Positions 5,574 to 33,854 of a stretch of 35,665 nt of DNA are shown here, piece after piece. The translations under genes were made by a program, and so were the position numbers. The notes under the pieces were generated by a model, which did no database searches, had not been told where the DNA came from, and was given only the letters and a program-made list of their open reading frames with translations. Origin of the DNA: Clostridia bacterium (lineage in GTDB: Bacteria > Bacillota_A > Clostridia > Oscillospirales > CAG-272); assembly GCA_017626655.1 (NCBI GenBank), contig JAGAIH010000483.1, positions 1 through 35,665 on the forward strand, in the 5' to 3' direction. How positions within the stretch are numbered: the stretch's first letter is position 1; each line of letters begins with the position of its first letter.

Positions 5574-7583
5574 TCATGCCGCTATACGCTCGGGTGCATA
5601 TACGACCTGTTGCTTCCAAAGATCAATGAATTTTTGAAGCTTTGGTGGCGGGGGATTATTATTTTGTATTCTTGCCTGAGCAATATCGCCTTTTTTGATT
5701 TCAACCGTGCAGTAGGGTTTCTTCGGTGCCGAAGTCTTGCGGATAAAGAGAATGATACATTCTTCCTTTACCATCGAACTGACATACCTGCCTACGCAGT
5801 GATGAAGCTTATCTCCCTCACGCGCAATGTCCTTTGAGGAGGCAGGCGGCAAGACCGTAAAACCGAGCTTATTGAAGCCGTACCTTTCCATCAATCCGCC
5901 AAACATTTTAGCTAGCTTTCGGTCATATGCTGCTGAGGTTTCTGCCTTTGTCAAATCATTCACCCGATCGTGTGCTTCTCTGAGATTGTTGGGATAAAGA
6001 ACGAAACTGCTCTTCATATCATGTTCAAGCGCCTCACTCATAAGAAGATAATCCTTATAATCGGAAAGAACATTTGACACACCGGAGTATATTCCTTTAT
6101 TATAGGCAATTCTTCGGTAAGTGTTATACTGCTCTGTGGCGTATTTCATCAGCTTGTACGGTGTCATGAACCTCAGCGGGACAGTGATATAATCACTTTG
6201 GCTTACGTCGGTTCGGGAACACCACTTCATAAGTTCCATATCGGGTACAACCCCTTCATTCAACATTCCTTTTATCATATCGAATTGTTGTATGCCGGGA
6301 TCGACTTGACGGAGAAACGCAATATGTTTTTTCTCAACACCAAGCACCTCCGTGATCGTTTTGCCGTTTACGTTAATTAACTTTTCCCAGGAACGATAGT
6401 GATGACCGCCTGCATCTCCATAAACAATATAGGTAGCAAGACGAACGAAGCCCAGCTTTACAAGGTACTCAAGCACCGGATACGATGAGTAAGTACGCAG
6501 GTAATGCGGCATATACAGCGGGGTTGGATCCTGATAATAGTATTCCTTTAATGCGCTATATTGCCAAGGTGTTCCTTTGAGTGCCTTATCAAGATTTTTG
6601 TGATACAGAAAACCGCAAAGGTCGTTCTCAAAGTAATAACACCAACGGTTAAAACGAGGTCTGTCACCGCGACACCAAGGTGTTAACGCTCCGTGAGTAT
6701 AAGAATGGTAGAAACGATCCCATTTCACGATTTTGTTGCCATCCCAGCAAATCAAAAGACGTGCCGTTTCATACACATTAAAATCGGGAATATCGCACTT
6801 ATGGTAGCTTGCATATGCTTTCATAAAACGAACGACTATCTCGTTTTCTCCAACTCGCTGTATGACCTGAGCAGTAGAACGGTCGTGGAAATGACCTCGC
6901 CTACCACGGCTCTTGAACGTAACGGCTCTTTTGCATTTTGGACAAAAGCCTTTATCGTTGTTTTTCTTGCCTACCACCTCGACCTCTTTTTTACATGCCG
7001 TGCAATAGCCCTTCATGGGAGCCTTGCGATTGTGGTAATCGTAAAAAACGTAGTGGGGAAGTGTTTCCAGATGCATAAAGGTGTTGATGTCACGAGGAAG
7101 TGCTTTGACAACCTTCATGCGCTCAATAATCGTTTTTTGATTCCTGATCTCAGCCGCATATCTTCTGTTCCTTATAATTCTTTCTTGAAAATCGTCAAGG
7201 CAATCAAAGCCTTTTTTGGTAGTATTCTTAAAGAACTTTGCTATGCGTTCCTCGTCCGCTACAGAATAAAAGGCACATTTGTGTGAAAAATCCCAAGTTG
7301 GACCGAGGTTTTGAAACATACAAGTGCGCCATTTCGTTTTGCCTTCTTCGTGACATAATGTGATGTAATCTCCGTCAATCTGGAACATTGTCCACCGGGG
7401 AGTATAATCCCCGGCAGACACCTTTTTCTTTTCATAGACATGCAGAACAAGCGTGCGGCGGTGAGCAATATTTTTAATTGCGGTACACACCACATACTCG
7501 ATCTGCTCGGCGCAGAAGATACCGCTTCGAAGGTTTAATTTTCGATTCGGTACGGCTTCTTTGCGTAAGGCTCTTTTATCCAT
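5574..7583 (-). CDS. PcfJ-like protein
   Basis: A 669-aa protein with the PcfJ signature near the C-terminus: KLHHCVGRYV, then CIILFIRKTS, KPYCTVEIKKGDIAQARIQNN. PcfJ is known from the conjugative plasmid pCF10, next to pcfK; its biochemical role is not established. A zinc ribbon is visible around residues 193-223 (CTACKKEVEVVG...FCPKCKRAV). Several aromatic-rich segments follow (YYFENDLCGFLYHKNL). The ATG overlaps the stop of the PcfK-like gene (TAATG), so both are translated together as on pCF10. Length is near the upper range for this family. No catalytic site is recognised. Confidence 0.85.
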   Translation of the reverse strand: MDKRALRKEAVPNRKLNLRSGIFCAEQIEYVVCTAIKNIAHRRTLVLHVYEKKKVSAGDYTPRWTMFQIDGDYITLCHEEGKTKWRTCMFQNLGPTWDFSHKCAFYSVADEERIAKFFKNTTKKGFDCLDDFQERIIRNRRYAAEIRNQKTIIERMKVVKALPRDINTFMHLETLPHYVFYDYHNRKAPMKGYCTACKKEVEVVGKKNNDKGFCPKCKRAVTFKSRGRRGHFHDRSTAQVIQRVGENEIVVRFMKAYASYHKCDIPDFNVYETARLLICWDGNKIVKWDRFYHSYTHGALTPWCRGDRPRFNRWCYYFENDLCGFLYHKNLDKALKGTPWQYSALKEYYYQDPTPLYMPHYLRTYSSYPVLEYLVKLGFVRLATYIVYGDAGGHHYRSWEKLINVNGKTITEVLGVEKKHIAFLRQVDPGIQQFDMIKGMLNEGVVPDMELMKWCSRTDVSQSDYITVPLRFMTPYKLMKYATEQYNTYRRIAYNKGIYSGVSNVLSDYKDYLLMSEALEHDMKSSFVLYPNNLREAHDRVNDLTKAETSAAYDRKLAKMFGGLMERYGFNKLGFTVLPPASSKDIAREGDKLHHCVGRYVSSMVKEECIILFIRKTSAPKKPYCTVEIKKGDIAQARIQNNNPPPPKLQKFIDLWKQQVVYAPERIAA

Positions 7584-8440
7584 TATGCAACGTCACCTCC
7601 AAGCATTGAGAACATATCAAGCTGTCCTTCGTTTGCAGAGGGAGTGGCTTTCGGAGTTTCGGTTTTCTTAGGCTCCGGCTTTTTCTTCTCGGGTTTCTTT
7701 TTTGACGACTTCGGAGCGGACTTACCTGTGTAAGGCTTCGGAACAAACTTTTCCTCGTTTGGATCCTTGTCCTCGGGGGCATCCATATCAAAGAAGTATT
7801 CCTTTGCCCACTGATAGCAGAGGTCATCGGGAACATCGCTACCGTATCCCTCACGGTCGGGCTTGATGTCGTTATCCTTCATCTCCTGCATAACAAATTC
7901 CTTTGCTTTACGGGTAATGTAGCGAAAACAGTTCACCATACTTTTACGAGGGTGCATAACCTGCTTTGCAAGTTCTAGATCCTCGATACAGTAGGACTGT
8001 ATCATTTCGGTGACACACTGCTTCATATTACGTCTTGTCAGACGCTCGGCATCATCACCGACACGCTTCATTGACGCAGCGATCAAGGCATTGTCGTCCA
8101 TAGCAATCGATGCCTCCCAAGCAAAAAGGATTTCTTCCTCTTTTGCTTGTTTCTTCGCCTCCCATTCGGCTTTGCGTTTCGCTTCGGCTTCCTCGTGTTC
8201 CTTTCGTTTCTGCTCCTCGTTGTCTTCGGGAGGAGTTTCTTCTGCCGGAGCATCTTCCGCAGGCTGGTCCTCGGGGGGCGATTCTACGGCGAGCTTTGCA
8301 AGAGTGGCTTGTGCTGCCTCAGCTTCAGCGGCTTGGCGGGCTTCGTTTATTTCTTCTGCTTTTGCGCGAAGATCGATTTCGTCTGCATCAGCATTTTGAC
8401 GCATACGCATTTCCATATCTAATTCGGACATAACTCCCAT
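7583..8440 (-). CDS. PcfK-like protein with clamp-binding-like tail
   Basis: A 285-aa protein starting at ATG 8440 behind AAAGGAG. Residues 25-110 are an acidic, Ala/Glu-rich probable coiled coil. The PcfK-like core (about 115-225) shows NMKQCVTEMIQSYCIEDLEL, CFRYITRKAKEF and DDLCYQWAKEYFFD, matching the helical PcfK pattern ending in a tryptophan and tyrosines. A Lys/Pro-rich linker (KSAPKSSKKKPEKKK) leads to a C-terminal GQLDMFSML, whose QLDMF (273-277) fits the beta-sliding-clamp binding consensus. It neighbours the PcfJ-like gene as on pCF10. Recruiting replication or mating proteins to the clamp is an inference from that tail. Confidence 0.8.
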   Translation of the reverse strand: MGVMSELDMEMRMRQNADADEIDLRAKAEEINEARQAAEAEAAQATLAKLAVESPPEDQPAEDAPAEETPPEDNEEQKRKEHEEAEAKRKAEWEAKKQAKEEEILFAWEASIAMDDNALIAASMKRVGDDAERLTRRNMKQCVTEMIQSYCIEDLELAKQVMHPRKSMVNCFRYITRKAKEFVMQEMKDNDIKPDREGYGSDVPDDLCYQWAKEYFFDMDAPEDKDPNEEKFVPKPYTGKSAPKSSKKKPEKKKPEPKKTETPKATPSANEGQLDMFSMLGGDVA

Positions 8441-8786: not shown

Positions 8787-10481
8787 CTATTTCATTCTTT
8801 TCTTGGCAAGCATCGGTGAGAATTTCACCTCGCAAAAGCCATCCTTGTCGCGGTAAAAGTACCTTCTACCGTTTTCATCATAAAGCTCGATCACGTCGGA
8901 AGGTGCCGTTTGTCTGCCTCCATACCCCTCGGGTAAGCTGTCCTTGAACTTGTTGAATATCAGTTCCAGACAAACCTTTGCGGTATCATCGGTAAAGCAG
9001 AACTGCACCCCTTCGTGTACCAAAGCGTAATCCGCAGCGGGCGGTTGTACGTAACCGGCTTCGTGAAGTGCCTTGATGCCTTCAAAAGCGAAGGACTTGG
9101 GCTTTCCGTCTGTGAAATCAAGCTGGTAGATGCGGTATCCTTGCTCGCGTCTTTGTGTCAGCAGATCGTTCTTGAATGTTTCGTCGTCTGCCTGACCGTA
9201 TGCGGAGAACTCCTCGGCACTAAAGCCAAGATGCTCCTCCAGCGTTCCTTCGTGCTCGGATGAATCGTGCCACGCGGCAATCTCTTCTTCAAGCGTATCA
9301 AAATCGCATAGTCCGTAGATAAAGCGTTTCTTAAAATTCATTCTTGTTACGACCTCCTTTCCGGTCTGTTGTCTTTTTAGGGCGAGCTGCCAATCGTCGA
9401 TCCCCTTATAATTGGGATTCCACGTAAGGCGGCGTAGCTGTAACCCACATTTCTTTGTAATCAGATAGATATTGGAAACACCTCTATCCACGTTTTCATT
9501 ACGGAACTTGTCCATATCGGCAGCCTCCACGATAATCTCAGTGCCGTTCTCCTTGAGCAACGTCAGCATCAGTTCAAGCTGAGCCGTGTTGTTGACTCCC
9601 GCAATCGCAATAAATGAGCGATTCATCAGGAAGTGTGCAACGTCTGCTTTTAGAAAACCCTCGGTAAGATAGACAGCGCGAGCAAATGGATCTCCTACAA
9701 AATGAACGGGAGAACCTGAACTTACCCCCATTTCCTTACCGGCAGAGGATAGCCATATATACTTTGTCCCGCTTTTATCAGCGTCAGCACCTTCGTCCTT
9801 GATAGGAACGTCCAGGCGTATCTGCATACCGCGTATCAGTCCGTCAATTCCACGCACTGGAATGAGTATCCCCGCCGTTTTGGAATAGAACTTGACAGTC
9901 CACTCTCCGTCCTTCATATAGAAGCCGGGGACACCCTCAAGTGTACAGCCCTTTTCTCGAAGTACCCTCGCAATCTTTTTACAATAGTAAAAGGGAGGTG
10001 TGCTTCGGTACTGAAGCTTGTCAATCTGCTCGTCGGTAAGTCCTCGAACCTCATTCAGATGACGTCTATGCTCCTTGGATAAGGTCAGCATATTCAGCAT
10101 CATAGAGAAGGTCTGGTGTATCGTGCGTATGTCCGCGAGTTGCGACTGTACCGCATACTCCTGCTCACGCGGAGCAGGAGATGTCGGCTCATAACGTTGA
10201 GTATCAAACTCACCGTTTTGCAGACTTTCGCAGATTTCCCGATAAGCTTCGGAATTGCTGATATGATTGATCCTTGCGTACAGTGCCAACATACCGCCGT
10301 GCTCACCGCAGTAATTACAGCGCCATGAATCTTTTTCTGTACTGATGCTCATTTTTCCTCGTTTATCACCGCAGATGGGGCAGTCATAATAACCGCCTGT
10401 TGCGTGTGGACGGCGCATCCGCAAATGCAAAAGCTCGGCAACGTCCTGAATGCCAAACGGGAAATCGTGCGATTTGCTCAT
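8787..10481 (-). CDS. DNA primase-like protein, CHC2-type zinc finger plus Toprim
   Basis: A 564-aa protein. ATG 10481 is chosen because AAAGGAGG lies 7 bases before it; the longer frame would start at a TTG upstream of that site. The N-terminal zinc finger has C34, C37, C55 and C58 (YYDCPICGDKRGK, SWRCNYCGEHGG), resembling the CHC2 fingers of DnaG-like primases though the second ligand is Cys rather than His. A Toprim-like core follows, with VYLTEGFLKADVAHFL (acidic residue), FIAIAGVNN and IIVEAADMDKF (DxD). The remaining C-terminal region is unassigned and ends with FSPMLAKKRMK. It probably primes replication or complementary-strand synthesis of the element. It is cotranscribed with the recombination genes upstream. 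Confidence 0.8.
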   Translation of the reverse strand: MSKSHDFPFGIQDVAELLHLRMRRPHATGGYYDCPICGDKRGKMSISTEKDSWRCNYCGEHGGMLALYARINHISNSEAYREICESLQNGEFDTQRYEPTSPAPREQEYAVQSQLADIRTIHQTFSMMLNMLTLSKEHRRHLNEVRGLTDEQIDKLQYRSTPPFYYCKKIARVLREKGCTLEGVPGFYMKDGEWTVKFYSKTAGILIPVRGIDGLIRGMQIRLDVPIKDEGADADKSGTKYIWLSSAGKEMGVSSGSPVHFVGDPFARAVYLTEGFLKADVAHFLMNRSFIAIAGVNNTAQLELMLTLLKENGTEIIVEAADMDKFRNENVDRGVSNIYLITKKCGLQLRRLTWNPNYKGIDDWQLALKRQQTGKEVVTRMNFKKRFIYGLCDFDTLEEEIAAWHDSSEHEGTLEEHLGFSAEEFSAYGQADDETFKNDLLTQRREQGYRIYQLDFTDGKPKSFAFEGIKALHEAGYVQPPAADYALVHEGVQFCFTDDTAKVCLELIFNKFKDSLPEGYGGRQTAPSDVIELYDENGRRYFYRDKDGFCEVKFSPMLAKKRMK

Positions 10482-10520
10482 CGTAACCCCTCCTTTCAAG
10501 GTTGGATTTTAGTCTTGTCT

Positions 10521-11513: not shown

Positions 11514-11578
11514 TTTCTAAATCTCCTCTCAATAATAAAATAAGAGCCATTTCCGCATTTTCTGCAAAAATAACTCAT

Positions 11579-13828
11579 TTAACTTACTTTTTTCAGTTGA
11601 TCGCGCTCGGTCTCATAAGCGGTAACGTACTTGTTTACACGCTCACCGAGCAGGGTGTTTCTTACACCCGTGTCATTCTTATGTATCGCCATAAACAGCA
11701 TACCTTTTTCTCCCACGAGGATCACGCGACGCTTTGCACGGGTAATCGCCGTATAGGCGAGATTACGCCTCAGCATAATAGCGTGACTTCGGATAACGGG
11801 AATGATAACGACGTCATACTCCGAGCCCTGTGCCTTATGGATGGTAGTAGCATAAGCAATTTCAATATTGCCCATATCCTCCATACCGTATTCCACAATT
11901 CGGTCGGTGCCGAAGTCTATCGTTACCTTCATTTCATTCTTGTCGTCCACTCCGATTTTTCGGATAAAGCCGATATCGCCGTTAGACGCTTTTGCATTGT
12001 TCTTGTTCTGCATTACCTTGTCGCCCACTCTGAAATAGCGGCTGCCGATCTTTAGGTCGGGAATGTCCTCGTCCTCGGGAGGATTGACAAGCTCACGAAT
12101 GGTTCTGTTGAGCTGTTCCACCGCTGCAAGCCCCTCACTGCGGAAGGGAGAGAGGATCTGCACCTTTTCAATTCCGAATTTCTTTACAAGGTCACAGTAT
12201 TGGTTGCAGATAATATCCGCTGCTTCTTCCTGTGTTTTGCATTTCAGAAATAGGAAATCATCACCGTAATACAGATTTGTGCTATCCTCGTTGATGGCTT
12301 TCGCATTGTGCGCGATAAGGCTATCTGCCTTCTGACGAAAGATTTCGTTAAGAACGGTAACGGGTATCTTTCCGCAGTTGATAAGCTCGCGGAATACGTC
12401 ACCTGCGCCTACGCTCTGAAGCTGATCTACGTCGCCTACCAAGATAATCTTTGTTCCCGGTCTTATACGGGAGAAGAAATGGTTGGCAAGCCACATATCG
12501 ATCATGGAGCTCTCGTCCACGATAATCAGATCCGCGTCAAGCGGTTCTTTCTTTTTATCTTTGACGTAGCCGCTGTCTCCGAGAAGCCCCAAAAGGCTGT
12601 GAAGCGTTTTCGCATCGTTTCTACCCGTACTCTCAGCCATTCGTCTGCTCGCACGTCCCGTGGGTGCCGCAAGCATGATCTTTCTTGACGGATACAAACG
12701 ACCGAACACCTCGATAATTGCTCGAAGAACGGTGGTTTTACCCGTACCGGGAGAACCCGTAATAATAGAAAGATTGCTTTGGAACGCCATATAGACCGCC
12801 TCGCTCTGTCTTTGCGAAAGAGCGATTCCGAGGTTATGACGAATACTTTCAAGAATTGCCGTAATGTCAACGGGGGCAGGGGGAACGGCTAACATCTTTG
12901 CGATATTGACCGCCGTTTCGTCCTCCTGAACGAAGCTTGTCGTTTGGTACACTCGGTTCTTGTTGCTGACAATCTCACCCTTGAGTACCATCTGTTCAAG
13001 CACTGCCACGATCTCCTCGTTGGTTACGCGACTATTCTGATCTGCAATACGGTCATTGAGAAGTCTGTTGCTTTCCTTGAGCAGAGCTTCAAGCTCCAAA
13101 TACAAATGCCCGTTCTCGTTGCGTCCTGTGTCGAGGGCGGCGTAGATCGCGCCGTGAATTCTCATCGGATCGTTGAGCTTGCAATCGCCCTTACGAACGA
13201 TAGCGTCCACTCGCTTAAACCCGAAACCCGATATCTGACACAGCTCAAAGGGATTATTTTGAAGAATTTCCACGCTCTTTGCTCCGAAATGCTCATAGAT
13301 CTTTGTTGCCGTTGCCGGCGTTACGTTGAAGGGGGAGAGTAGGATCATAAGACCGCGAAGACATCTACTTTCGTCATAGGAAGCTTTGATTTCTTCAAGC
13401 TTTGAGGGCGTAATACCTCGTATCTCCAGCAAGCGCTCAGGTTGCTTTTCCAAGATTTGAAGAGCGTCTGCACCGAAGCGTTCAACGATGAGGTCAGCCG
13501 TCTTTTCTCCAACACCTTTTATAAGGCGAGAGGAAAGGTAGCCGCGTACACCGTCCTTCGTCTGCGGAACGATCTCTTCACAGGACTCAACCTGCAACTG
13601 CGGTCCGTATTTACCGTTCTGCCATTCGCCGTTGAGAATCATACTGACTCTATCGGTCTGGGGCAGCTCGTAGCCAACTGCCGTAAAGCGTATCAGTCGG
13701 TCACGGTGCTGAAATGCGCTACGTGCCTTTTGAGGAATGCTTTGGTCGTTGGTCTTAACACTGATCACACAGTATTTGCTCACGGGATTGTAGTAAATCG
13801 TCTTGTCATACACCCCGGTGTAGCTCAT
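11579..13828 (-). CDS. RecD2-like ATP-dependent DNA helicase (SF1)
   Basis: A 749-aa protein. ATG 13828 follows AGGAGGTG at good spacing; a GTG nine bases upstream overlaps that site. Two helix-hairpin-helix regions (about 100-150, LIKGVGEKTADLIVERFG; and about 170-210, ISGFGFKRVDAIV) precede the helicase core. Walker A is GSPGTGKTTVL (about 358-368), Walker B LIIVDESSM (about 435-443), motif III-like GDVDQLQSVGAG, and late motifs ATTIHKAQGSEYDVVIIPV and AYTAITRAKRRVILVG. This is the RecD2 layout, a 5'-3' helicase not associated with RecBC. Element-encoded RecD2 proteins probably act in strand processing together with the neighbouring exonuclease and annealing protein. Confidence 0.9.
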   Translation of the reverse strand: MSYTGVYDKTIYYNPVSKYCVISVKTNDQSIPQKARSAFQHRDRLIRFTAVGYELPQTDRVSMILNGEWQNGKYGPQLQVESCEEIVPQTKDGVRGYLSSRLIKGVGEKTADLIVERFGADALQILEKQPERLLEIRGITPSKLEEIKASYDESRCLRGLMILLSPFNVTPATATKIYEHFGAKSVEILQNNPFELCQISGFGFKRVDAIVRKGDCKLNDPMRIHGAIYAALDTGRNENGHLYLELEALLKESNRLLNDRIADQNSRVTNEEIVAVLEQMVLKGEIVSNKNRVYQTTSFVQEDETAVNIAKMLAVPPAPVDITAILESIRHNLGIALSQRQSEAVYMAFQSNLSIITGSPGTGKTTVLRAIIEVFGRLYPSRKIMLAAPTGRASRRMAESTGRNDAKTLHSLLGLLGDSGYVKDKKKEPLDADLIIVDESSMIDMWLANHFFSRIRPGTKIILVGDVDQLQSVGAGDVFRELINCGKIPVTVLNEIFRQKADSLIAHNAKAINEDSTNLYYGDDFLFLKCKTQEEAADIICNQYCDLVKKFGIEKVQILSPFRSEGLAAVEQLNRTIRELVNPPEDEDIPDLKIGSRYFRVGDKVMQNKNNAKASNGDIGFIRKIGVDDKNEMKVTIDFGTDRIVEYGMEDMGNIEIAYATTIHKAQGSEYDVVIIPVIRSHAIMLRRNLAYTAITRAKRRVILVGEKGMLFMAIHKNDTGVRNTLLGERVNKYVTAYETERDQLKKVS

Positions 13829-13880
13829 TATCCTCACCTCCTGTGGTTTCGTTTGTTTTCATAATGGTTTTCCTTTCTGT

Positions 13881-14344: not shown

Positions 14345-15403
14345 TCAGGCAGCTTTTGCCGCCGATTTTTTGACGTAGAATCTTCTTGACTCCGATACGG
14401 TTACGAATTGCTCGTAAATGTCGGGATACTGCATCTGCAAACGGAACAAATCCTCTTTGCTGATACCGGGCTTCTTTGATGGATTGTAGGTAACAGTGTA
14501 ATCTGTTCCGTCTCTGCTGTAAGTAGCCGTACAGCACCGTCCCATTTCATCCACGATCCGTCCCTGCAAGCGTTTCATCTCATCATCAATGCGAGCGATC
14601 TCGGCATTGAGTGCCGATTTCTGTGCTTTGAGTTCAAGAAAACGCATGGCGCCATTGACGTTAGCAAAGCTGAGCTCAATAGCGGCAGCATTTGGATCCG
14701 CTGTACCGAAATGGTTTTTCACGCTCTCTAAAATCAAGTCGCCGTCCTCTAAATAGGGAGGGGGAACTCTTGCGAGAATGTGATTGTGCCAATAGTCGTA
14801 CTCGATAGCAATCAATTCTTCCTCGTAATCCTTATCGCGCGTGATATGACGGATGATCGTTTCGTTTTCACTGTTTCCGTAAAGACAACAGAAATAAACG
14901 TGATCTACGTTGATGACCGCCATATAGTGCCGCCCTTGGATCTCGTAGTTGACCGGAACGACCTCCTCACCGTCACGCCACCAATGATCGGTCGCGTTGT
15001 AGTTAGTGGTCTTGATCTCCAGTATTGCCGTTTCTCCGTTTGGCAGAGTAATGAAGTAATCGACGTCAGCAAGCATAAACGGATACTGCGGATGATAGAA
15101 CATTTTTTTGACTTGATAGATATGAAAGCCCGTCCTTACGTGGAAAATCTCGGCTACCAAATCCTCAAGTAAATGTCCCATCTTCTTTTGTACCCAGTTG
15201 TCCTCGGGATCCTCATAGGTTACGATTTTGAGTTTGTCGTAATATAAGTCCCGCGCTGTTTTGAACGGCGATACACCGAGAATAGATGCGGCATCACTGC
15301 CACCGATACCTCGTCTTCGATATTCCAGCCAATCGCTCTCCGGCAAGTCCTTTGTGTCTACAAGCACTTGCGGCTTGTAGCTTTGTGTTGCAGTGTCAGG
15401 CAC
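14345..15403 (-). CDS. YqaJ-type viral recombinase/exonuclease
   Basis: A 352-aa protein. The likely start is GTG 15403, one base after the stop of the upstream small gene and behind GCGAGGTG; an in-frame GTG three codons earlier is possible. The N-terminal motif EYRRRGIGGSDAASILGVSP and FKTARDLYYDK is diagnostic for the YqaJ nuclease fold, a lambda-exonuclease-like PD-(D/E)xK family. The catalytic elements are visible as MLADVDYFI and ETAILEIKTTN (the E-x-K). The C-terminal third contains a probable coiled coil (FLELKAQKSALNAEIARIDD). YqaJ exonucleases act 5'-3' on double-stranded DNA to feed an annealing protein, consistent with the candidate recombinase four genes downstream. Confidence 0.85.
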   Translation of the reverse strand: MPDTATQSYKPQVLVDTKDLPESDWLEYRRRGIGGSDAASILGVSPFKTARDLYYDKLKIVTYEDPEDNWVQKKMGHLLEDLVAEIFHVRTGFHIYQVKKMFYHPQYPFMLADVDYFITLPNGETAILEIKTTNYNATDHWWRDGEEVVPVNYEIQGRHYMAVINVDHVYFCCLYGNSENETIIRHITRDKDYEEELIAIEYDYWHNHILARVPPPYLEDGDLILESVKNHFGTADPNAAAIELSFANVNGAMRFLELKAQKSALNAEIARIDDEMKRLQGRIVDEMGRCCTATYSRDGTDYTVTYNPSKKPGISKEDLFRLQMQYPDIYEQFVTVSESRRFYVKKSAAKAA

Positions 15404-15404
15404 T

Positions 15405-15563
15405 TTACGCACCTCGCTTTCTGCATTGCTTCAAGAACACAGCCTGTCTGTATTCCGTCCGCAGGGGATACTTTGTTTCTTTCTTCAGCTCCTTTCTTAG
15501 AATCTGCTGCTTGATCTTGGCGTTACTCTTTTTGTGAAAACGCCGCTTGGGTTTGTTGTTCAT
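15405..15563 (-). CDS. Small basic protein, 52 aa, first gene of the operon
   Basis: ATG 15563 is preceded by AAAGGTGG at 11 bases. The protein begins MNNKPKRRFHKKSNAKIKQQ and ends AVFLKQCRKRGA. About a third of its residues are Lys or Arg, suggesting nucleic-acid binding. Its stop is one base before the exonuclease start, implying translational coupling. No family recognised. Confidence 0.6.
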   Translation of the reverse strand: MNNKPKRRFHKKSNAKIKQQILRKELKKETKYPLRTEYRQAVFLKQCRKRGA

Positions 15564-15616
15564 TCTTTTCTGAACCACCTTTCATTATTTATTTCCAGAG
15601 CCGTGTGGCTGTTGGA

Positions 15617-15705
15617 CAAAATAAAAAAAGCGAGAATGAACCTCCAAGCCATAGATCGGCATTAGTGTTTACAATAGATACGTAAACCGGATTCATTCTC
15701 GCTTT
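15617..15705 (-). terminator. Leader terminator 2 of the minus-strand operon
   Basis: Reading the minus strand, AAAGCGAGAATGAA (15705..15692) pairs perfectly over 14 bases with TTCATTCTCGCTTT (15640..15627), and TTTTATTTTG follows. The 51-base loop holds an inner hairpin (GTTTAC / GTAAAC). It lies between the promoter and the first gene, so operon expression requires read-through or a second promoter. I see no second good promoter. Confidence 0.75.
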
Positions 15706-15728
15706 GTGTGGGCAGAGTAAGCCCTATT

Positions 15729-15790
15729 AAAATTAAAAATAGTCAGTATTAGCCCATAGCAAAAAAAGCATAGGGACAGTTCATACTGAC
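15729..15790 (-). terminator. Leader terminator 1, overlapping the leader ORF
   Basis: On the minus strand GTCAGTAT (15790..15783) pairs with ATACTGAC (15749..15742), followed by the T-rich tattttTAATTTT. The stem includes codons and the stop of the short leader ORF. Alternative pairing is possible between CCCTAT inside that ORF and ATAGGG just beyond the terminator, which would compete with it. This is the layout of a transcription attenuator. Confidence 0.6.
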
Positions 15791-15817
15791 CGCATACAAA
15801 AATAACCACGTGTGCAT
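15749..15817 (-). CDS. Possible 22-aa leader peptide
   Basis: A short frame on the minus strand within the 5' leader, beginning MHTWLFLYAV and ending AFFAMG, with a TAA inside the second arm of terminator 1. It is too short to be judged by composition. A ribosome binding site is weak (GTAAG about 17 bases upstream). The position, overlapping the stem of a terminator downstream of a perfect promoter, is what makes it credible. Ribosome stalling on it could prevent terminator formation, as known for leader peptides such as that of tet(M) in Tn916; the inducer here is unknown. Confidence 0.4.
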   Translation of the reverse strand: MHTWLFLYAVSMNCPYAFFAMG

Positions 15818-15877
15818 TGCAAGTTGAAAACTTACGGGTGTCCTTACGGACGGCGCACAAAAATCAATTACACATGT

Positions 15878-15906
15878 ATTATACCACAAGAAGCTTATTT
15901 TGTCAA
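15878..15906 (-). promoter_or_regulatory. Perfect sigma-A promoter for the minus-strand operon
   Basis: On the minus strand TTGACA (15906..15901), a 17-base spacer and TATAAT (15883..15878) match consensus exactly. Transcription should begin near 15870 and pass through a leader of about 300 bases. Such an unregulated-looking promoter fits control by attenuation in the leader rather than by initiation. Confidence 0.85.
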
Positions 15907-16028
15907 GAGTAAGCAGGTGTAGGCTGGTTTTCGTAAAAAATTTATTTTGTTTGCAGAAAACAAAAATCTGCCTCCGTCTTTATGGGTACACGAGTAAAAA
16001 ACGTGATAAAAAGAAGGGAGTAATCAAA

Positions 16029-16489: not shown

Positions 16490-16599
16490 AACAAAATCCT
16501 AAAAAAACAATTTGCACATTTGACGTATTCAAGTCGAAGTTGTATAATAAGAGCACAACCATCGCTTTGCTTGGAAAGAGAGGTAAGAATGAAGAGTAA
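16486..16599 (+). CDS. Possible 37-aa peptide overlapping the recombinase promoter
   Basis: Its ATG overlaps the TGA of the 51-aa gene (ATGA) and its stop overlaps the recombinase start by 11 bases, an arrangement typical for coupled genes. The sequence is MKQNPKKTICTFDVFKSKLY followed by a short basic tail. The recombinase promoter lies inside it, so it may equally be non-coding leader. Confidence 0.3.
   Translation: MKQNPKKTICTFDVFKSKLYNKSTTIALLGKRGKNEE
16520..16548 (+). promoter_or_regulatory. Promoter of the serine recombinase gene
   Basis: TTGACG (16520..16525), a 17-base spacer and TATAAT (16543..16548) form a near-consensus promoter about 40 bases before the recombinase ATG. Transcription should start near 16555, just ahead of the GAGAGG ribosome binding site. 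Confidence 0.75.
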
Positions 16600-18187
16600 A
16601 GAGCAAAGCAGATTGATCGCAGCGCTGTATTGCAGACTCAGCGACGACGATGAAAAAGACGGTACCAGTGTTTCGATTGAAACACAAGAAAAGATACTAA
16701 CCGATTTTTGTAAACAAAATAATATCTGCATTTACGATGTTTATATAGACGACGGATTTACGGGAACGAACTTCAATCGTCCGGATTTCAAACGTATGAT
16801 GGAGGATGTGAAAGCCAAGCGCGTTAATGTAGTCATCGTAAAAGACTTATCCCGTTTTGGAAGAAACTACTTGCAGGTGGGCTCATACATAAGTGATGTA
16901 TTCCCGCAGATGAACGTTCGCTTTATTGCTATTGGTGATGATGTGGACACTGACCGTGGAGATACAGATTATGATCTGATGCTTCCAATCAAGAACGTAT
17001 TTAATGAATATTATCCCGCTGATTGCTCAAGGAAGACCAAACAAGCGTTTATAACAAAGGCTATGAACGGAGAATATATTGGTTCTTTTGCCGTTTATGG
17101 ATTGCTGAAATCTCAGGATGACCATCACGTTTTAGAAATCAATCAAGAGGTTGCGCCTAATGTGGTTTGGATTTTTGAAATGGCAGCATATCAAGGATAT
17201 GGCTATAACAAAATTGCTCGGGTATTAAAGGAGCATAAGATACTTACGCCTTCCGCTTATCGAGCGCAATTGTTAAAGAGACCGTATGACAAGGATCCAT
17301 ATGATTGGAACCTTGCTACCGTTCATAAAATACTGAACGATAAAACTTACTTGGGCTTTTTTATCAGCGGTCGGCGTAGGAAAGTATCGTTTAAGAGTAA
17401 GCGCATTGTAAGGCAAGAGGAAGAAGATTGGATTATGATTCCGGGAATTGTTCCTCAGTTAATCAGTCAACAGCTTTGGGATGATGCTCACGCTAAGCTT
17501 GATAGCAGAAAGCGAACAGGCTCAAGCGGATTTAATAATATCTTTGCGGGACTGATTAAATGCGACAAGTGCGGACATGCTCTTGGCATTGCAAATGCTT
17601 CTGACAGAAAGAACTACTATGTTTGCAATACCTATAAGAAAAAAGGTCCTGAAGTATGTTCAAGCCATTATATCATGTACCACGAGTTATATGATGCAAT
17701 TTTGCACGATATTAACGAAGTGCTATTTATGGTGCGGGAGAATAAGGAAGAGTTCATTGCGAGGGTTCTTCATAGGATTGAAAACGAGGATAGCGAGGAA
17801 GCTCGTATAGAAAACGAGATCAAGATGCTTGAGTCAAAAATTGCGGAGCTTGACCGAAAGTTTGAGCAACTGTATGATGATAGATTCAACGGAATTCTTT
17901 CCGACCGTAAGTTTCAGGATTTGTCCGCAAGGTGTGAAGCCGAGCAGGACGAAGCGAGAGCGAGAAGGGCAGAGCTTGTAAAGATACACGATAATTCTCA
18001 GGCTACAGCCTATGGTACAGAAAGATTCATTGAAATGGCAGAAGCATTTGAAACTCTGACGGAGCTTGATGATGAGGTTCTCAATCGTCTCATTCAGTCC
18101 GTTATTGTTGGAGACCGTATCAAAGAAAACGGCGAAACAAGGCAGAATATTAGGATCAATTACAAATTTATCGGAGAAATCGCATAA
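16589..18187 (+). CDS. Large serine recombinase (TndX/TnpX type)
   Basis: A 532-aa site-specific recombinase. ATG 16589 follows GAGAGG; an earlier in-frame ATG at 16520 lies within the promoter. The N-terminal resolvase domain has the nucleophile S18 in ALYCRLSDDD, with VIVKDLSRFGRNYLQVGSYI and FTGTNFNRPDF. A recombinase domain follows (YNKIARVLKEHKI, DPYDWNLATVHKILNDKTYL). A zinc ribbon (KCDKCGHALG, YYVCNTYKKK, VCSSHY) and a coiled coil (MLESKIAELDRKFEQL) precede a C-terminal segment with the DUF4368 look (LNRLIQSVIVGDRI...IRINYKFIG). Enzymes of this type excise and insert elements through a short core. Its place at the edge of the element, just before a tRNA-like junction, fits an integrase role. 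Confidence 0.92.
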   Translation: MKSKEQSRLIAALYCRLSDDDEKDGTSVSIETQEKILTDFCKQNNICIYDVYIDDGFTGTNFNRPDFKRMMEDVKAKRVNVVIVKDLSRFGRNYLQVGSYISDVFPQMNVRFIAIGDDVDTDRGDTDYDLMLPIKNVFNEYYPADCSRKTKQAFITKAMNGEYIGSFAVYGLLKSQDDHHVLEINQEVAPNVVWIFEMAAYQGYGYNKIARVLKEHKILTPSAYRAQLLKRPYDKDPYDWNLATVHKILNDKTYLGFFISGRRRKVSFKSKRIVRQEEEDWIMIPGIVPQLISQQLWDDAHAKLDSRKRTGSSGFNNIFAGLIKCDKCGHALGIANASDRKNYYVCNTYKKKGPEVCSSHYIMYHELYDAILHDINEVLFMVRENKEEFIARVLHRIENEDSEEARIENEIKMLESKIAELDRKFEQLYDDRFNGILSDRKFQDLSARCEAEQDEARARRAELVKIHDNSQATAYGTERFIEMAEAFETLTELDDEVLNRLIQSVIVGDRIKENGETRQNIRINYKFIGEIA

Positions 18188-27462: not shown

Positions 27463-30408
27463 ATGGATAAGAAAAAATGCAAGAGTAAGGCCGCCCTTGC
27501 GAAGGCCATTACGGCGGCAGTCCTTGCGGTCGTGCTTCTGGCCGGGAATATTGCTTTCTACCTGAACGTGGACGCGATCGCTGCCCATTACCGTAGCCTC
27601 GGCTACGGGGAGGAGAGCGAGGAGGCTATTGCCGCGCGTGAGTCGGGAAATGCCTTGGCTGAGCAGATCGAGGCTGAGGGCGCGGTCCTTCTGAAAAACG
27701 ACAATAACGTCCTTCCCCTGAAGGATTTGAAGGTCAACGTGTTTGGCTGGTCGGGAAGCGATGACGGATTCATTCCCATGGGTACGGGATCGGGCGCGGG
27801 AGCCCGCAATGATCTCGTGACCTTCCTTGGGGGTCTTGACGAGGTCGGGATTCAGTATAATCCGAAGCTTGCCAGGGCCTACGATGACCTGAATTGGAAC
27901 CGTGTGGGCGGAGGATCCTATTTCGTCGAGGCTCACGGAGATCAGTATAAGGATTACTACGGCGTGACCGAGGCGCCCGAAAGCTTTTACACAGACGAGC
28001 TCATGGAGGACGCGGTGGCATACTCTGACACGGCGATCATTGTTCTGGGCCGTTTGATGGGCGAAGGAAATGACTTCTCCAAGACCCAGTACTTCTCCAA
28101 CCAGACCGGCGGCGGTGAGGATCCCAACCGCAAGCTCCAGTCGCTCTCCGCGCGTGAGGAGTACATGATCAATCTCGTGTGCGAGAAGTTTGAAAACGTC
28201 ATCATCATTACGAATACCGGCAATCCTCTGGAGCTGGGTATCGCCGACGATCCCCGTGTGGACGCTGTTCTGAGCATGGGACTACCCGGTACCCGCGGAA
28301 CGATCGGCATTGCAAAGATCCTGAGCGGCGAGGTCAATCCCTCGGGTAAGCTGGCCGACACCTGGGCCTACGACCTGTCTACGGCTGCCGCCTACGCCAC
28401 GGCCGGTCTGAATGCCAACAAGTATACCGAGCTGGGCTTTGCGTATACCGAGTACATGGAGAATATCTACAACGGGTATCTTTGGTATGAGACCGCGGAT
28501 GCCGAGGGCTTCTGGAGCAGCGACCGCGCCTACGAGCTGTGGGGCGTGAGAAGCTACGACGAGGTGGTGCAGTATCCCTTCGGCTTCGGCTTGTCCTATA
28601 CCACCTTTGACTGGGAGCTGAAGGAGGTCAACGTCGCAAAAGGCGCGATTGTATCCAAGAATGACACCGTGAAGGTAACGGTCCGCGTGACCAATACGGG
28701 AGAGGTAGCAGGCCGTGACGTGGTGGAGCTGTACTACTCTGCTCCCTATACTCCCGGCGGGATCGAGAAATCCGCCATTAAGCTGGGTGGATTTGCCAAG
28801 ACCCCTACCATTGAACCCGGCCAGTTTGCCGACGTTGTGATCGAAATGCCCATTGAGGAAATGAAGTCCTATGACTGCTACGATGCCAACAACAACGGCT
28901 TTATGGGCTACGAACTGGAGAAGGGAAGCTACGTTCTTTCCTTCCGTACCGACGTGCACACCCTGAAGGAGGGGATGACGGATCATAGCCTCACCCTAAA
29001 CGTGGCGGAGGATGTCCGCTACGAGGTGGACAGCGTGACCGGAACCGTGGTCACGAATCAGTTTACCACCTACAAGAATCCTGTTTCGGGCGCTTCCAGC
29101 ACCATCAACGAGCCCTTCCAGCCTAACGCTCATTCCATGGATGGCGCCGAGAATGAGGGCGGTCCCATTGCCTACATGACCAGAGCGGACTTTGTGGGTA
29201 CCTTCCCCGTTGCGGCATCGCCCAACAAAACGGGAACGGACCTGCTGAAGGACATGCACAAGAACACCAAGGGCCATGAGCCCGCGGATCCCAACGTGAC
29301 GGGAGCTCCCGTGTTTGGTTCCACCTCTACCAAATGGAACATCAATGATCTCTTTGGTGTGCCCTACAACAATCCCATGTGGGATGAGATCACCAGCCAG
29401 CTGACCTACGAGGAAGCCCTACACTTCCTCATTGACGGAATCGGCACCATCGCGCTGGAGTCCATTGATAAACCCGCTACGAAGGATACCGACGGCCCCT
29501 GCGGCTTCAATACCAATATGACCGGTGAGGATGATCAGAAGGCCGTGTGTTATCCCTGCTCCACCGTGATCGCCCAGACCTGGGATTGGTACGCCGTTTA
29601 CCAGGTGGGCGTTGCCATCGGTATGGAGGGTAACGCCCTCGGCATCGATGGCTGGTACGGCCCCGGCGCCAATACCCACCGCTCGGCTCTCGGCGGCCGT
29701 AACTTTGAGTACTACTCCGAGGACGCGCTCCTGTCGGGTGTCATGTGCGCGTACCACTGCCTTGGGGCAAAGGAACGGGGTATTCAGGTGTACGTCAAGC
29801 ACATCGGCCCCAACGAGGACGATAACGGCCGAAACGGAGCCTACAAGTGGCTCACCGAGCAGGCCCTTCGCGAAAACTACCTGAAGCCCTTTGAAATGGC
29901 TATCAAGATGGGTGCCAACGGTCTCATGGCCTCGGTCACCCGTACCGGCGGTATGAGAACCACCGGCTCCTACGCGCTTCAGACTGTTGTTGTCCGCGAT
30001 GAGTGGGGATTCTGCGGAACCATCATCACCGACTACTACCAGAGCGGCGACATCAACGACTTTGACGAGGGAATCCGCGCGGGGAATACCCAGGTCCTGT
30101 GGCCCGATTACCGCGACGACATTCTGGACGATACCACGAGCGATACCGCGAAGTATTACGTTCATAAGTCTGCCAAGGATATGCTGTACGCCTATGCGGA
30201 CACCATGTTCTACGCCGAGACGGCACAGGGCCTTGAGAACGGAGCCCTCGTGGGTACCGTTACCCAGGAGACGGTGGCGGTGTTCCCTTGGTGGATCCCC
30301 TGCATGACGGCTTTCAACGCCGTGGCTCTGGCGGTGATCCTTTATCTGGCTGTTCCCAAGGATCTGTTCAGGAAGAAGGGTCCCGGGAATACCGAGGTTG
30401 CCGCGTAA
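27463..30408 (+). CDS. Membrane-anchored GH3 glycosidase with inverted domain order
   Basis: A 981-aa enzyme. A hydrophobic helix near the N-terminus (about 16-36) is followed by the GH3 C-terminal-type domain (EAEGAVLLKNDNNVLPL, then NPSGKLADTWA, YPFGFGLSYTTFDW), a fibronectin-III-like domain (about 400-520, VTVRVTNTGEVAGRDVVELY), and only then the GH3 N-terminal barrel (KDTDGPCGF, NFEYYSEDALLSG, YVKHIGPNEDDN). The nucleophile is probably D857 in GTIITDYYQSG; the acid/base may be E201 in MGEGNDF. This swapped order is known from beta-glucosidases of Ruminococcus albus and Butyrivibrio. A second hydrophobic helix (about 941-966, WWIPCMTAFNAVALAVILYL) near the C-terminus would anchor the other end. 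Substrate unknown. Confidence 0.85.
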   Translation: MDKKKCKSKAALAKAITAAVLAVVLLAGNIAFYLNVDAIAAHYRSLGYGEESEEAIAARESGNALAEQIEAEGAVLLKNDNNVLPLKDLKVNVFGWSGSDDGFIPMGTGSGAGARNDLVTFLGGLDEVGIQYNPKLARAYDDLNWNRVGGGSYFVEAHGDQYKDYYGVTEAPESFYTDELMEDAVAYSDTAIIVLGRLMGEGNDFSKTQYFSNQTGGGEDPNRKLQSLSAREEYMINLVCEKFENVIIITNTGNPLELGIADDPRVDAVLSMGLPGTRGTIGIAKILSGEVNPSGKLADTWAYDLSTAAAYATAGLNANKYTELGFAYTEYMENIYNGYLWYETADAEGFWSSDRAYELWGVRSYDEVVQYPFGFGLSYTTFDWELKEVNVAKGAIVSKNDTVKVTVRVTNTGEVAGRDVVELYYSAPYTPGGIEKSAIKLGGFAKTPTIEPGQFADVVIEMPIEEMKSYDCYDANNNGFMGYELEKGSYVLSFRTDVHTLKEGMTDHSLTLNVAEDVRYEVDSVTGTVVTNQFTTYKNPVSGASSTINEPFQPNAHSMDGAENEGGPIAYMTRADFVGTFPVAASPNKTGTDLLKDMHKNTKGHEPADPNVTGAPVFGSTSTKWNINDLFGVPYNNPMWDEITSQLTYEEALHFLIDGIGTIALESIDKPATKDTDGPCGFNTNMTGEDDQKAVCYPCSTVIAQTWDWYAVYQVGVAIGMEGNALGIDGWYGPGANTHRSALGGRNFEYYSEDALLSGVMCAYHCLGAKERGIQVYVKHIGPNEDDNGRNGAYKWLTEQALRENYLKPFEMAIKMGANGLMASVTRTGGMRTTGSYALQTVVVRDEWGFCGTIITDYYQSGDINDFDEGIRAGNTQVLWPDYRDDILDDTTSDTAKYYVHKSAKDMLYAYADTMFYAETAQGLENGALVGTVTQETVAVFPWWIPCMTAFNAVALAVILYLAVPKDLFRKKGPGNTEVAA

Positions 30409-30439
30409 AAAATACATGGATATACTTTGTGGAGGATTT

Positions 30440-33400
30440 ATGAAACGCAGATACATCCGCGCCGCCGCATGGATACTGGCGCTACTCCTGTCGCTCCCGA
30501 CCGTTTTTACAGGGTGTCATACCGGTAGCGATCCCAAAGAGGAAAACACATCTGCTCCCGAAACGGGCTCTCTGCCCATTGAGACCGGATCCGACGACTT
30601 TGAGAATACTCTGATGCTGGCCGCCGACGGGCAGACTGACTATACCGTGATCGTGCCCGACTACGCCGCCGCGTGGGAGCTGGCCGCCGCCGAGCGACTG
30701 GTAGCCACCCTCGCCGACCTCGGCGTGACGGTGACCCCCGTGACGGACACCGCCACCGAGCCTACCGCCAAGGAGATCGTGGTCGGTTACACCAACCGTA
30801 ACGACGAGCTGGCTCATGATTTCTACGACGTCGGTCCGGCCGGCTACCATATCGCCCTCCTAAGCGAGAAGCTCTTTATCGGCACGAACACCGAGGCGGG
30901 CATGACCGCCGCTATGGATCGCCTGGCCGCCGATCTGATTTCGGACGGCAATCGCCTCGGCATCAAGGAAGGCTACGTTTGCAAGGTCGTGGACGAATCG
31001 GCAGAGCCTGCCGCACCCACCCTGTCGGGAGCCTATGCGCAAAGCATTGCCTACGCTCACAGCGTGGCCAACGGTGTGCAGGGATACTACACCGACGGAA
31101 CCCGCAAAGGCTTCCTTGTCGGCAATGAATCCATGTCCGTGATCGCGGATATGACCGCGTCCGGCAACCGCGCCATCAATGCCTTTGTCAACGAGCACGG
31201 TATCCCCTACCTGCGGAACACCATGTCCGCCTACGTGGAGACTGCCGCAAACCGATACTATTCCGGCAATTCCAGCGTGCCCGCCCGTATGAATATGTTC
31301 CGCTACGGCGCGTACTACTACGAGACCCGACTCATGGGCCAGGACTTTGGTGCCTCCCGTGTCGTGGATGAGAGCACCGAGCCCTATGATCTCATTGCGG
31401 AGAACAAGAACTTTGGCGGATTGAACATCACGGTCCGTAAGGATTCGAGCAACAACACACTCAAGGCGATCCTTACCAGCTCCGAGGGCTCTTATATCAC
31501 CTTCAACAAGGCCATGAAGCTTCCCACCGAATCCTACGGTGCCGTCCTTCTGACCCTCAAGACCGAAGGATGCCCCGGGGGACGCATCTATCTCGCGGCC
31601 GGATCTCACGAAGGCATTGACGGCGCTCAGTGGCTGAATTACGATCTGATCGACGACGGCGAGTATCATACCTACATCATAAGCCTGGACGGAGTTGCGG
31701 ACTATACGGGAAATCTGACCCAGCTCCGCCTGGATCTGAACGGTCGGGAAGATGCGGTCATTGAGATCAAAGAGCTCAAGATCGTCAAGACCAAGTCCAG
31801 TGGTGTTCCCTCCGTGGCGTTGGATCGCATCTTCCATGCCTATCCGGATAAGCTCCACCAGGAGCTCCATCTGGTGACCACTTACGAAGAGAAGAACATG
31901 ACCGCCTACGGCATGGAGACCGCCGTTGAGACCTCCCGTGTGAGATCCCTTCTGGTGATCGACGGCAAGGGCGAGCATACGACTCTTGACGGCGTGGATT
32001 GGAGCAGCATGGTAGCCGTGGCGTTCGATATAGACCGCGCCGGTGTCTTTGGCTACGTGCTGCCCGCCTCGGGCGGCGGTCAGATCACCGTTACTGAGAA
32101 GGACGGATACTACGTCATCGATCAGAAGATGACGGCGAAGAGCTCCTATGCACAGTTTGAAAGCCTCAGCATGGGTCACCGCATCTACAACGATGCCACC
32201 CATAGCTTCGACGGCTTCCGCGAGGCGGTTCGCGAGGAGCAGCATCCTCTCACCGTGACCGTGGCGGCCTCCCAGTCCTTCAACGGGAAATTCGTGGGCT
32301 ACGATTCTCTGCGCGGCGCCTACCGTGTTGACCTGAAGGGAACGGATTTCAATACGGCCTACTACCAGACCCCGGACCTTCACTACCGTGTTGACGTGGA
32401 GATCAAGGGAGACAGCGCTGACCGCAACGTGTACTTCTATACCTACACCCCCAACGGAGGACTTGAATCAGCTGTTTTGATGGATAGCCAAAATCGAGTC
32501 CTGCCTTATACGGTACAGGTCTGCAAGAATTTCTCCGGCGAGAACGAGGAGCCGCTGTTCTGCAAGGGAGACCCCGCTTATGGCGAGGCTTATTTCCCCA
32601 TCTCTGTCAAGAGCGGTGAGAGCTTGAGCTTCTCGGTACTCAATCTCTATCAGAATTGGGGTGCCTTCCCGCTCAAGCAGATCTCTTCGGTCCAGTTCTT
32701 CGTCCCGTACTACCATCTTTCCACGGGCGTGACCGAGACGAACTGCATTGCCCCCTATTACGTGGACGGAAAGAACCTGTGGACTCTCCCCGACTTCCGC
32801 GCCATGTCCGCCCCCCTCTGGGCAGGTCAGCCTCAGCATACCTCCGGCGGCCGTCTCTACTTCCTTCAGTATACCGATGCGGAAGGGAATACCTACGCCT
32901 CCGATAAAACGGTGGATGAGATCGTCTCCCACGGCCCCGTATATACGGATATTTGGATGAACTATCTGTCGGACGACGGTCGGATCTCCATCGATTACCG
33001 CCATATGGAGATGCCCCAGACCGACGAGAACCGCACTTATTACGAGATCCGCATGAAGGTGCTGAAGGATATCTCCTTTGAGAACTTTGCGGAGGACTTC
33101 ACCTTCTTCTCCATGGACGGACGCAGCATAGTCTACGATACTCTGGGCTATCTGAACGAAAATAACGAGGTCATCCTGACGAGCACGAATCAGAGCAAGC
33201 GCGAAAAAATCTACAAGCTGGGCAGCAAGTCTCCGTTCGTGTCCTTGTCCTATACGGCGGCGAGCAACGACTACGTCAATCTGGCGGCCGTGATCAAGGA
33301 TTATTCTGCCACGATCGGCGGCCGGGCCTATACGGGCGGTATCGTTATGACCGACACGTTCCGGGGCAACGTCAACTACGTGCGTCTGACACTGGATCTG

Positions 33401-33844: not shown

Positions 33845-33854
33845 AAGAACAACT

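Follow-up and report, generated by a model that had tools for sequence, protein, structure and literature searches.

Organization of the locus

The window, i.e. the whole 35,665-nucleotide stretch of Clostridia DNA analysed here, carries on its minus strand an operon of about 13 kb that extends from a small basic open reading frame (ORF), starting at 15563, to position 2559 and encodes proteins with YqaJ, RecD2, YodL/CHC2, PcfK and PcfJ domains. The first gene (15405-15563) encodes a very basic protein of 52 amino acids with a net charge of +16, a speculative candidate for an RNA partner, and is followed by the genes for a nuclease of the YqaJ/lambda-exonuclease family (14345-15412), a RecD2 helicase (11579-13837), a YodL protein with a weak match to the CHC2 zinc finger (8787-10499), a PcfK-like protein (7583-8440) and a PcfJ-like protein (5574-7583), all on the minus strand. 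On the same strand, a terminator-like hairpin lies within the operon, 3' of recD2 (11544-11576), and a strong one at the operon end (2518-2548). The preliminary description of this DNA had reported a DNA-processing operon of about 12.8 kb behind a leader, without a resistance gene in between, and both points hold: the small basic ORF alone precedes yqaJ.

The operon is preceded by a promoter, a leader and two terminators, all of them real features of the window. The TTGACA-17-TATAAT promoter (15906-15878, minus strand) matches the consensus at 12 of 12 bases, as claimed previously, and additionally has the extended -10 TG; it is the sole minus-strand promoter-like site listed between 14500 and 17000. 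The putative transcript start and a constant 5' box, GUAAUUGAUUUUUGUGC, which contains the 5' strands of P1 and of a tentative stem P0, occupy 15855-15871 (all leader features are on the minus strand). They are followed by the hairpins P2 (15840-15851; GUCC-GUAA-GGAC) and P3 (15819-15835; GUAAGUU-UUC-AACUUGC), the 3' strand of P1 (GCACA) with a constant linker (15792-15815; family consensus approximately CGYUGUUAAGNUUGUAY), and the terminator T1 (15729-15791), which consists of a covarying hairpin (15791-15741) and a T-rich stretch (15740-15729). Further downstream are the small local hairpin P5 (15709-15725; GGGC...GCCC) and the terminator T2 (15623-15705), with a 13-bp stem, AAGCGAGAATGAA/TTCATTCTCGCTT, a branched loop and a run of seven T, which corresponds to the second strong terminator of the preliminary description. 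Folding of the transcript, which that description had proposed, gave -75.7 kcal/mol for the 255-nt leader; dinucleotide shuffles averaged -54.0, and none of the 200 was as low (z -5.0). A scan of the window for short-loop terminators listed neither T1 nor T2, the loop of T2 exceeding the limit of that scan.

Divergently from the leader, a gene for a large serine recombinase, with a sub-threshold resemblance to CcrB, is located at 16520-18187 (plus strand). In the plasmid pMM35_02, a tyrosine integrase and an excisionase are encoded on the side of the operon where the window has this recombinase. Farther away (27463-35096, plus strand), glycoside hydrolase genes of families 3 and 43 flank the gene for a large uncharacterised protein; these genes probably serve in polysaccharide use and belong to the host or to the cargo.

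A conserved RNA at the head of several operons

The leader in the window is probably a copy of a folded RNA conserved among clostridial mobile elements, in which it precedes several operons for DNA processing. The conserved unit, as delineated by sequence comparison, comprises the 5' end of the transcript, the branched stem P1/P2/P3, the constant linker and T1. A search with YqaJ yielded five contigs from metagenome-assembled genomes of Clostridia, and the leader precedes the operon in all five. The same search against plasmids gave 64 records; the best 2 of the 64 (Vescimonas fastidiosa and Subdoligranulum variabile) were examined and both contain the leader RNA. Among virus contigs, the exact 26-base pattern of the window had no matches, and the 17-base 5' box was found in 18 stretches, of which 3 contain the RNA (L013, L018 and L019) and 15 do not; L019 duplicates L003 and was excluded from the alignments.

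A covariance model (R1) built on ten aligned copies matched all 10 source records, as expected for model input, three of them twice, as well as 4 of the 391 genomes of one class and 17 of the 394 genomes of one order. Within one family, the second model (R2), built on 41 copies, matched 26 of the 300 genomes sampled, centre genome included, and within another order it matched 2 of 51, one of these with six matches; the genome samples overlap and all these counts include the centre genomes. Altogether, 81 model matches from 78 sources were obtained, further loci that covered places already represented having been left out beforehand; after a weak match and a place present twice had been removed, 79 copies were left, corresponding to 71 distinct rows.

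Some of these records are unusual. Genome G086 (L107, L108, L109 and L110) has two contigs with three RNA copies each and one weak extra match, and most of its copies precede unidentified genes. NZ_AP023417.1 (L123) is a linear record that is called a plasmid, yet carries genes such as prfB, selD and purB, and could be either a chromid or part of a chromosome.

No match to the leader was found in Rfam 15, either in the window or at the 23 other loci scanned. In the window, the leader had no match at the gathering score, and a scan of 15500-16000 down to E 5 gave two matches, with E values of 3.2 and 4.6. Of the relatives, 20 loci were scanned at the gathering score and 7 loci (3 of them new) down to E 0.5; apart from the xerDC RNA beside the leader, these loci gave a single match, which fell far short of its gathering score. 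With blastn, the leader matched no plasmid and gave one match to phages, at E 0.8. Among the literature matches listed, no description of the RNA was found in titles and the beginnings of abstracts, and six search terms did not occur in the main text of a human-microbiome RNA catalogue (PMC8040213); an earlier, unnamed listing of the RNA, for example, in that same catalogue, is possible.

Structure and covariation of the RNA

The proposed pairs form P1 (5 bp), P2, P3, T1 and the tentative P0 (UUGA with UUAA). Compensatory changes, which are seen among the copies in both P2 and P3, were assessed after all 81 matches (72 distinct rows) had been aligned to the model, a procedure that by its nature favours the proposed structure. 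In this alignment, 94.3% of the cells pair, and this fraction drops to 33-53% for slid structures; double-sided changes were detected in 22 of the 28 pairs (338 cells), values that none of 500 shuffles reached. At P0, changes on both sides were found at one of the four pairs. Six rows with A-U in place of U-A at one P0 pair are, from a reading of the sequences, apparently the divergent copies of G086.

To compare covariation with a tree-based null, the same substitutions were replayed on the tree with a script of our own (40 replicates, 9870 pairs). Every one of the 12 strongest covarying pairs of the 9870 (E values up to 0.05) falls within P2, P3 or T1. In a sequence-only alignment, pairs of T1 or P1 made up four of the five top pairs, but with E values from 0.3 to 12; covariation is strong only in the structure-fitted alignments. 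Alignment-free folding of the 67 distinct copies that possess all anchors gave mean z scores of -2.65 for the interior of P1 and -4.55 for T1, with 65 of the 67 copies below -1 and none above 0 in each case. Comparison of the copies establishes the RNA family and its predicted structure.

The short frame in the leader

The preliminary description interpreted the leader as an attenuator in which a ribosome on a 22-codon frame, stalled for instance by a drug, would switch the terminators. The frame is there (15749-15817, minus strand; ATG at 15817, TAA at 15749; MHTWLFLYAVSMNCPYAFFAMG) and its stop indeed lies in a terminator stem, within the 3' half of the T1 hairpin, but comparison of the copies indicates that it is not a conserved gene, the outcome that the preliminary description had itself named as refuting its proposal, and we judge it a non-gene. 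Of the 76 copies (out of 79) that have a base in the column of the ATG, 3 have ATG, 60 have TTG and 13 have other triplets; TTG at this place is the constant strand adjoining P1. The frame read from this column varies from 0 to 486 codons, its stop has no fixed place, and no Shine-Dalgarno match was found for the frame in the window. When ORFs were counted that begin within the leader, have 5 codons or more and match a ribosome site, 36 of the 79 copies had one, compared to a mean of 45 in shuffled leaders (range 37-53), so that ORFs preceded by a ribosome site are no more common than in shuffled leaders.

The proposed pairing between CCCTAT (15775-15770) and ATAGGG (15727-15722) is possible in the window, but a comparable 6-nt pairing is kept in only 2 of the 33 copies with the same operon, whereas P5, which occupies the G-run of ATAGGG, forms in 26 of the 33. 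The frame, its start codon, the ribosome site and the pairing all led to rejection of a ribosome-mediated attenuator. TTG in 60 of 76 copies does leave room for a short constant start of the LHTLLSLY type, and in the window the frame ends in T1 and the pairing can form; nevertheless, a translated leader peptide that is sensitive to ribosome-targeting drugs and switches T1 and T2 is hardly credible given that neither the length nor the stop of the frame is kept. The part of the original proposal that survives is the more general one, namely, a leader with terminators at the entry of a DNA-processing operon of a mobile element; the peptide switch is unsupported.

Genes behind the RNA and the shared promoter

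Genomic contexts were assigned by tblastn of up to 1500 bases following each of the 79 copies. The RNA precedes yqaJ in 33 cases, ssb in 23, a DUF932-type operon without ssb in 5, a gene for a tyrosine recombinase in 6, ligA in 1 and unidentified genes in 11, two of the latter having little sequence. Pfam confirmed the ligase and found recombinase domains in each of the three recombinase proteins submitted to it (in one, the N-terminal domain only); it assigned no family to five fragments from ssb-less copies, for which the DUF932 label denotes 53-57% identity to an annotated protein of pMM35_02. This plasmid combines two of the contexts: one copy heads an operon of yqaJ, recD2, yodL, a gene annotated as AcrIIA9-like that takes the place of pcfK in the window, pcfJ and ligA, and the other copy begins the stretch from ssb to parM. 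In G520:C59 (98290-100590), a yqaJ-type copy (L055) and an ssb-type copy (L066) are in facing orientation with 2 kb between them, which might reflect a rearrangement or a join made during assembly.

The promoter is conserved together with the RNA, scoring 8 to 12 of 12 over the 79 copies. In the 71 copies with a 17-base spacer, the spacer has the near-palindromic consensus CACAATATATTGTG, with a conservation approximately equal to that of the -10 box; in the window itself, this palindrome is degraded. The combination of the promoter with the spacer palindrome occurs at four places in pMM35_02 (142 kb) and a 100-kb stretch of another genome taken together, and these are exactly the four RNA copies; it is absent from ten mononucleotide shuffles of pMM35_02.

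All six recombinase copies are associated with a further structured RNA, xerDC (RF03062), that lies upstream of the tyrosine recombinase gene (L086, 993-1138; L049, 2173-2295; L105, 2086-2234; L106, 1957-2105; L084, 939-1087; L080, 1999-2123); one of these matches is above and five are below the gathering score. Because xerDC is found about 360-530 bases downstream of the leader RNA in 6 of 6 cases, it is an element separate from the RNA described here; no xerDC match was detected at the leader itself or anywhere in the window.

Terminators at and beyond the leader

T1 satisfies a rule of a hairpin followed by T residues in 73 of the 79 copies and fails it in 6. In the ssb copies, the SSB match starts 38-58 nt beyond the end of the RNA match, so that a polymerase coming from the leader promoter must pass T1. 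A box like GCGAGAATGA, characteristic of T2 and defined as a pattern after the sequences had been inspected, is present in 30 of the 33 yqaJ copies (3 lack it) and in none of the 23 ssb copies; a strict test for T2, which required a perfect stem of at least 8 bp and a T-rich tail, was passed by 18 of the 33. For the ssb copies, 21 of the 23 were examined for a second terminator 3' of ssb, and a very strong one was found in 20 of the 21, compared to 0 of 63 mononucleotide shuffles, under a fold-based rule that was set after the folds of 8 of 9 misses revealed hairpins barred by a first, stricter rule (12 of 21 versus 9 of 210 shuffles); L066 is the sole exception. Among the copies without ssb, 4 of 5 have a very strong terminator (L039 does not).

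Similar structures recur inside the operons. By inspection of folds, a hairpin with a T-rich tail, like that in the window, follows recD2 in 6 of the 7 loci read (it is missing in L109; an eighth locus gave no readable recD2 end), and pMM35_02 has three strong terminators between the genes of its ssb-parM stretch. No promoter-like site is listed on the plus strand of pMM35_02 from the leader promoter to 18360, nor on the minus strand of the window from 15600 to 8719, where the promoter scan over the operon region operates at chance level (20 sites versus 17.8); promoters of genes past the internal terminators could escape a simple consensus scan. Thus, owing to T1, T2 and the internal terminators, a polymerase that starts at the leader promoter must pass several terminators to transcribe most of the operon. 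The association of the RNA with promoter and terminators, its repeated use before different DNA-processing operons and the predicted internal terminators are all borne out by comparison across the copies.

A small basic protein at the start of the yqaJ operons

A small ORF with a net charge of +8 or more (approximately 39-65 amino acids), poorly conserved in sequence, precedes yqaJ in 31 of the 33 copies. Since the most basic candidate was taken in each copy, controls were put through the same selection: such an ORF turned up 70 times in 660 shuffles, in 3 of the 33 reverse strands and in 7 of the 30 stretches taken from upstream. The 52-residue protein of the window had no match in Pfam, and four of the small basic proteins had only matches with E values of 0.09 or worse in PHROGs. 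Because a basic ORF is so much more frequent before yqaJ than in the controls, the RNA might have a protein partner, and the small basic protein is a speculative candidate for this role; the ssb copies have no room before ssb for such a gene.

Comparison with known systems

Several RNA-based antitermination systems of mobile elements and bacteria resemble the present arrangement; the comparisons below follow the published descriptions, in the portions of the sources covered. In Tn916, canT, 452 bp in length and situated close to the right end, acts on the terminator at the left end after excision; it is cis-acting, most likely as an RNA, and its processive antitermination is required for transcription of the element after excision (PMC11658703). 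By this description, internal terminators within the operon are common to both systems, but the RNA described here is about 80 nt long before T1, forms the 5' end of the transcript, stands directly before each operon and is found twice in several elements. The put RNA of phage HK022 is a structured RNA of about 70 nt, with putL and putR located behind the two early promoters, and affects terminators at least 10 kb away (PMC9378689). As described, put has two stem-loops, unlike the present RNA, which comprises a branched domain followed by a conserved terminator and occurs in Clostridia.

The conAn system of pLS20 consists of the protein ConAn1 and the RNA conAn2, and stands, in conjugative elements of Gram-positive bacteria, at the start of a long operon with many internal terminators (PMC8955417). 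The small basic first gene in 31 of the 33 yqaJ operons is reminiscent of this organization, which differs from the ssb copies in that these offer no space for such a gene. When the first 50,000 of the 65,774 bases of pLS20 were searched with R2, the best match scored 10.1 bits (E 1.4), i.e. nothing significant was found. LoaP acts with the dfn hairpin, an RNA hairpin found together with a terminator in the leaders of long operons that contain additional terminators (PMC12691694); as far as the covered text describes it, LoaP requires a NusG paralogue and the structure of dfn differs from that of the present RNA. No NusG paralogue was found in either of the two named records, and each of the six genomes searched had exactly one NusG match; LoaP-dependent antitermination was rejected for lack of a paralogue beyond this single match. 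The xerDC RNA (RF03062) and the STAXI motif, a repeated pseudoknot by the account in part of PMC2864571, are likewise structured RNAs beside recombinase or SSB genes.

A probable role in antitermination

Two features of the RNA-based antiterminator class of put, EAR and canT are present here, namely, a conserved RNA structure upstream of terminators and further terminators beyond the first one, and processive antitermination best explains the layout because strong terminators follow T1. We therefore consider it reasonably likely that the leader RNA is a processive antitermination site that works in the manner of canT, put or conAn. The nascent RNA, with P1 enclosing P2 and P3, a constant internal loop and the linker, would fold before the polymerase arrives at T1; the branched domain, alone or with a protein, would then modify the elongating polymerase and allow it to pass T1, T2 and the intergenic terminators. 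Transcripts that enter without the RNA, for example, from host promoters, would halt at the operon terminators, and the near-palindromic operator common to the promoter spacers would probably switch the copies together. In this scheme, read-through, processivity, the function of the operator and any part played by the small basic protein encoded first in the yqaJ operon are what we infer. No trans-acting factor for antitermination was found, NusG/LoaP being absent from the two named records.

The same layout has other explanations. The RNA could bind a small molecule or a protein of the element and decide only on the formation of T1, as a riboswitch or a protein-dependent attenuator would. Indeed, a branched and conserved domain that has constant bases at unpaired positions and directly precedes a terminator is riboswitch-like, and the RNA copies form a group of related operons, but the arms of T1 vary and appear to have no complementary partner upstream: in 66 distinct copies, the complementarity of the two arms to the upstream leader had mean z scores of +0.32 and +0.49, with none below -2, and no significant covariation between T1 and the upstream leader was detected with the tree-based null over all column pairs. 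With T1 covarying significantly only within itself and neither of its arms complementary to the leader, an alternative-pairing switch is unlikely, and the search for alternative pairing of the riboswitch type by covariation and duplex energies found nothing. Moreover, a local switch would not overcome the further strong terminators beyond T1, and we regard this possibility as unlikely.

The short terminated RNA of approximately 140 nt might instead be the actual product, acting in trans or as a decoy, with the operon expressed by leakage through T1. The RNA begins right behind the promoter and T1, by the rule used here, comes next in 73 of the 79 copies, as this explanation would predict; however, the 38-58 nt before the SSB match leave little space for another promoter, none is listed between the RNA and ssb in pMM35_02, and an RNA acting in trans needs no copy before every operon, all of which makes this quite improbable. 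Finally, the terminators might serve as insulators against read-in only, the RNA fold reflecting an unrelated constraint and the operons being constitutively leaky. Leading and internal terminators would stop host transcription, in line with what is described for the T1 terminator of Tn916 in the covered portion of PMC11658703, but T1 of the leader sits behind the element's own promoter, where a mere insulator would stop the transcript of the element as well, and the P1-P3 domain is present in all the contexts counted; we consider this explanation very improbable.

Processive antitermination by the RNA also admits an extension, which is rather doubtful at this point: the 5'-terminal branched RNA and the small basic protein might constitute a new, bipartite, element-wide system that protects the polymerase from terminators. 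The recombination, ssb-parM and recombinase operons would all be made terminator-resistant at once. The logic would be like that of lambda N, with no sequence relation claimed. If this is the case, a single operator and a single RNA would control the element's entire life cycle.

Irrespective of this extension, the RNA provides a searchable element for the study of regulation in a class of clostridial mobile elements and links their recombination, ssb-parM and recombinase modules. It bears on the question of how the long operons of these elements are kept silent but can be transcribed in full on demand. If antitermination is confirmed, a structurally distinct RNA would be added to the few RNA antiterminators that the literature covered here names, i.e. 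put, EAR, canT and conAn2.
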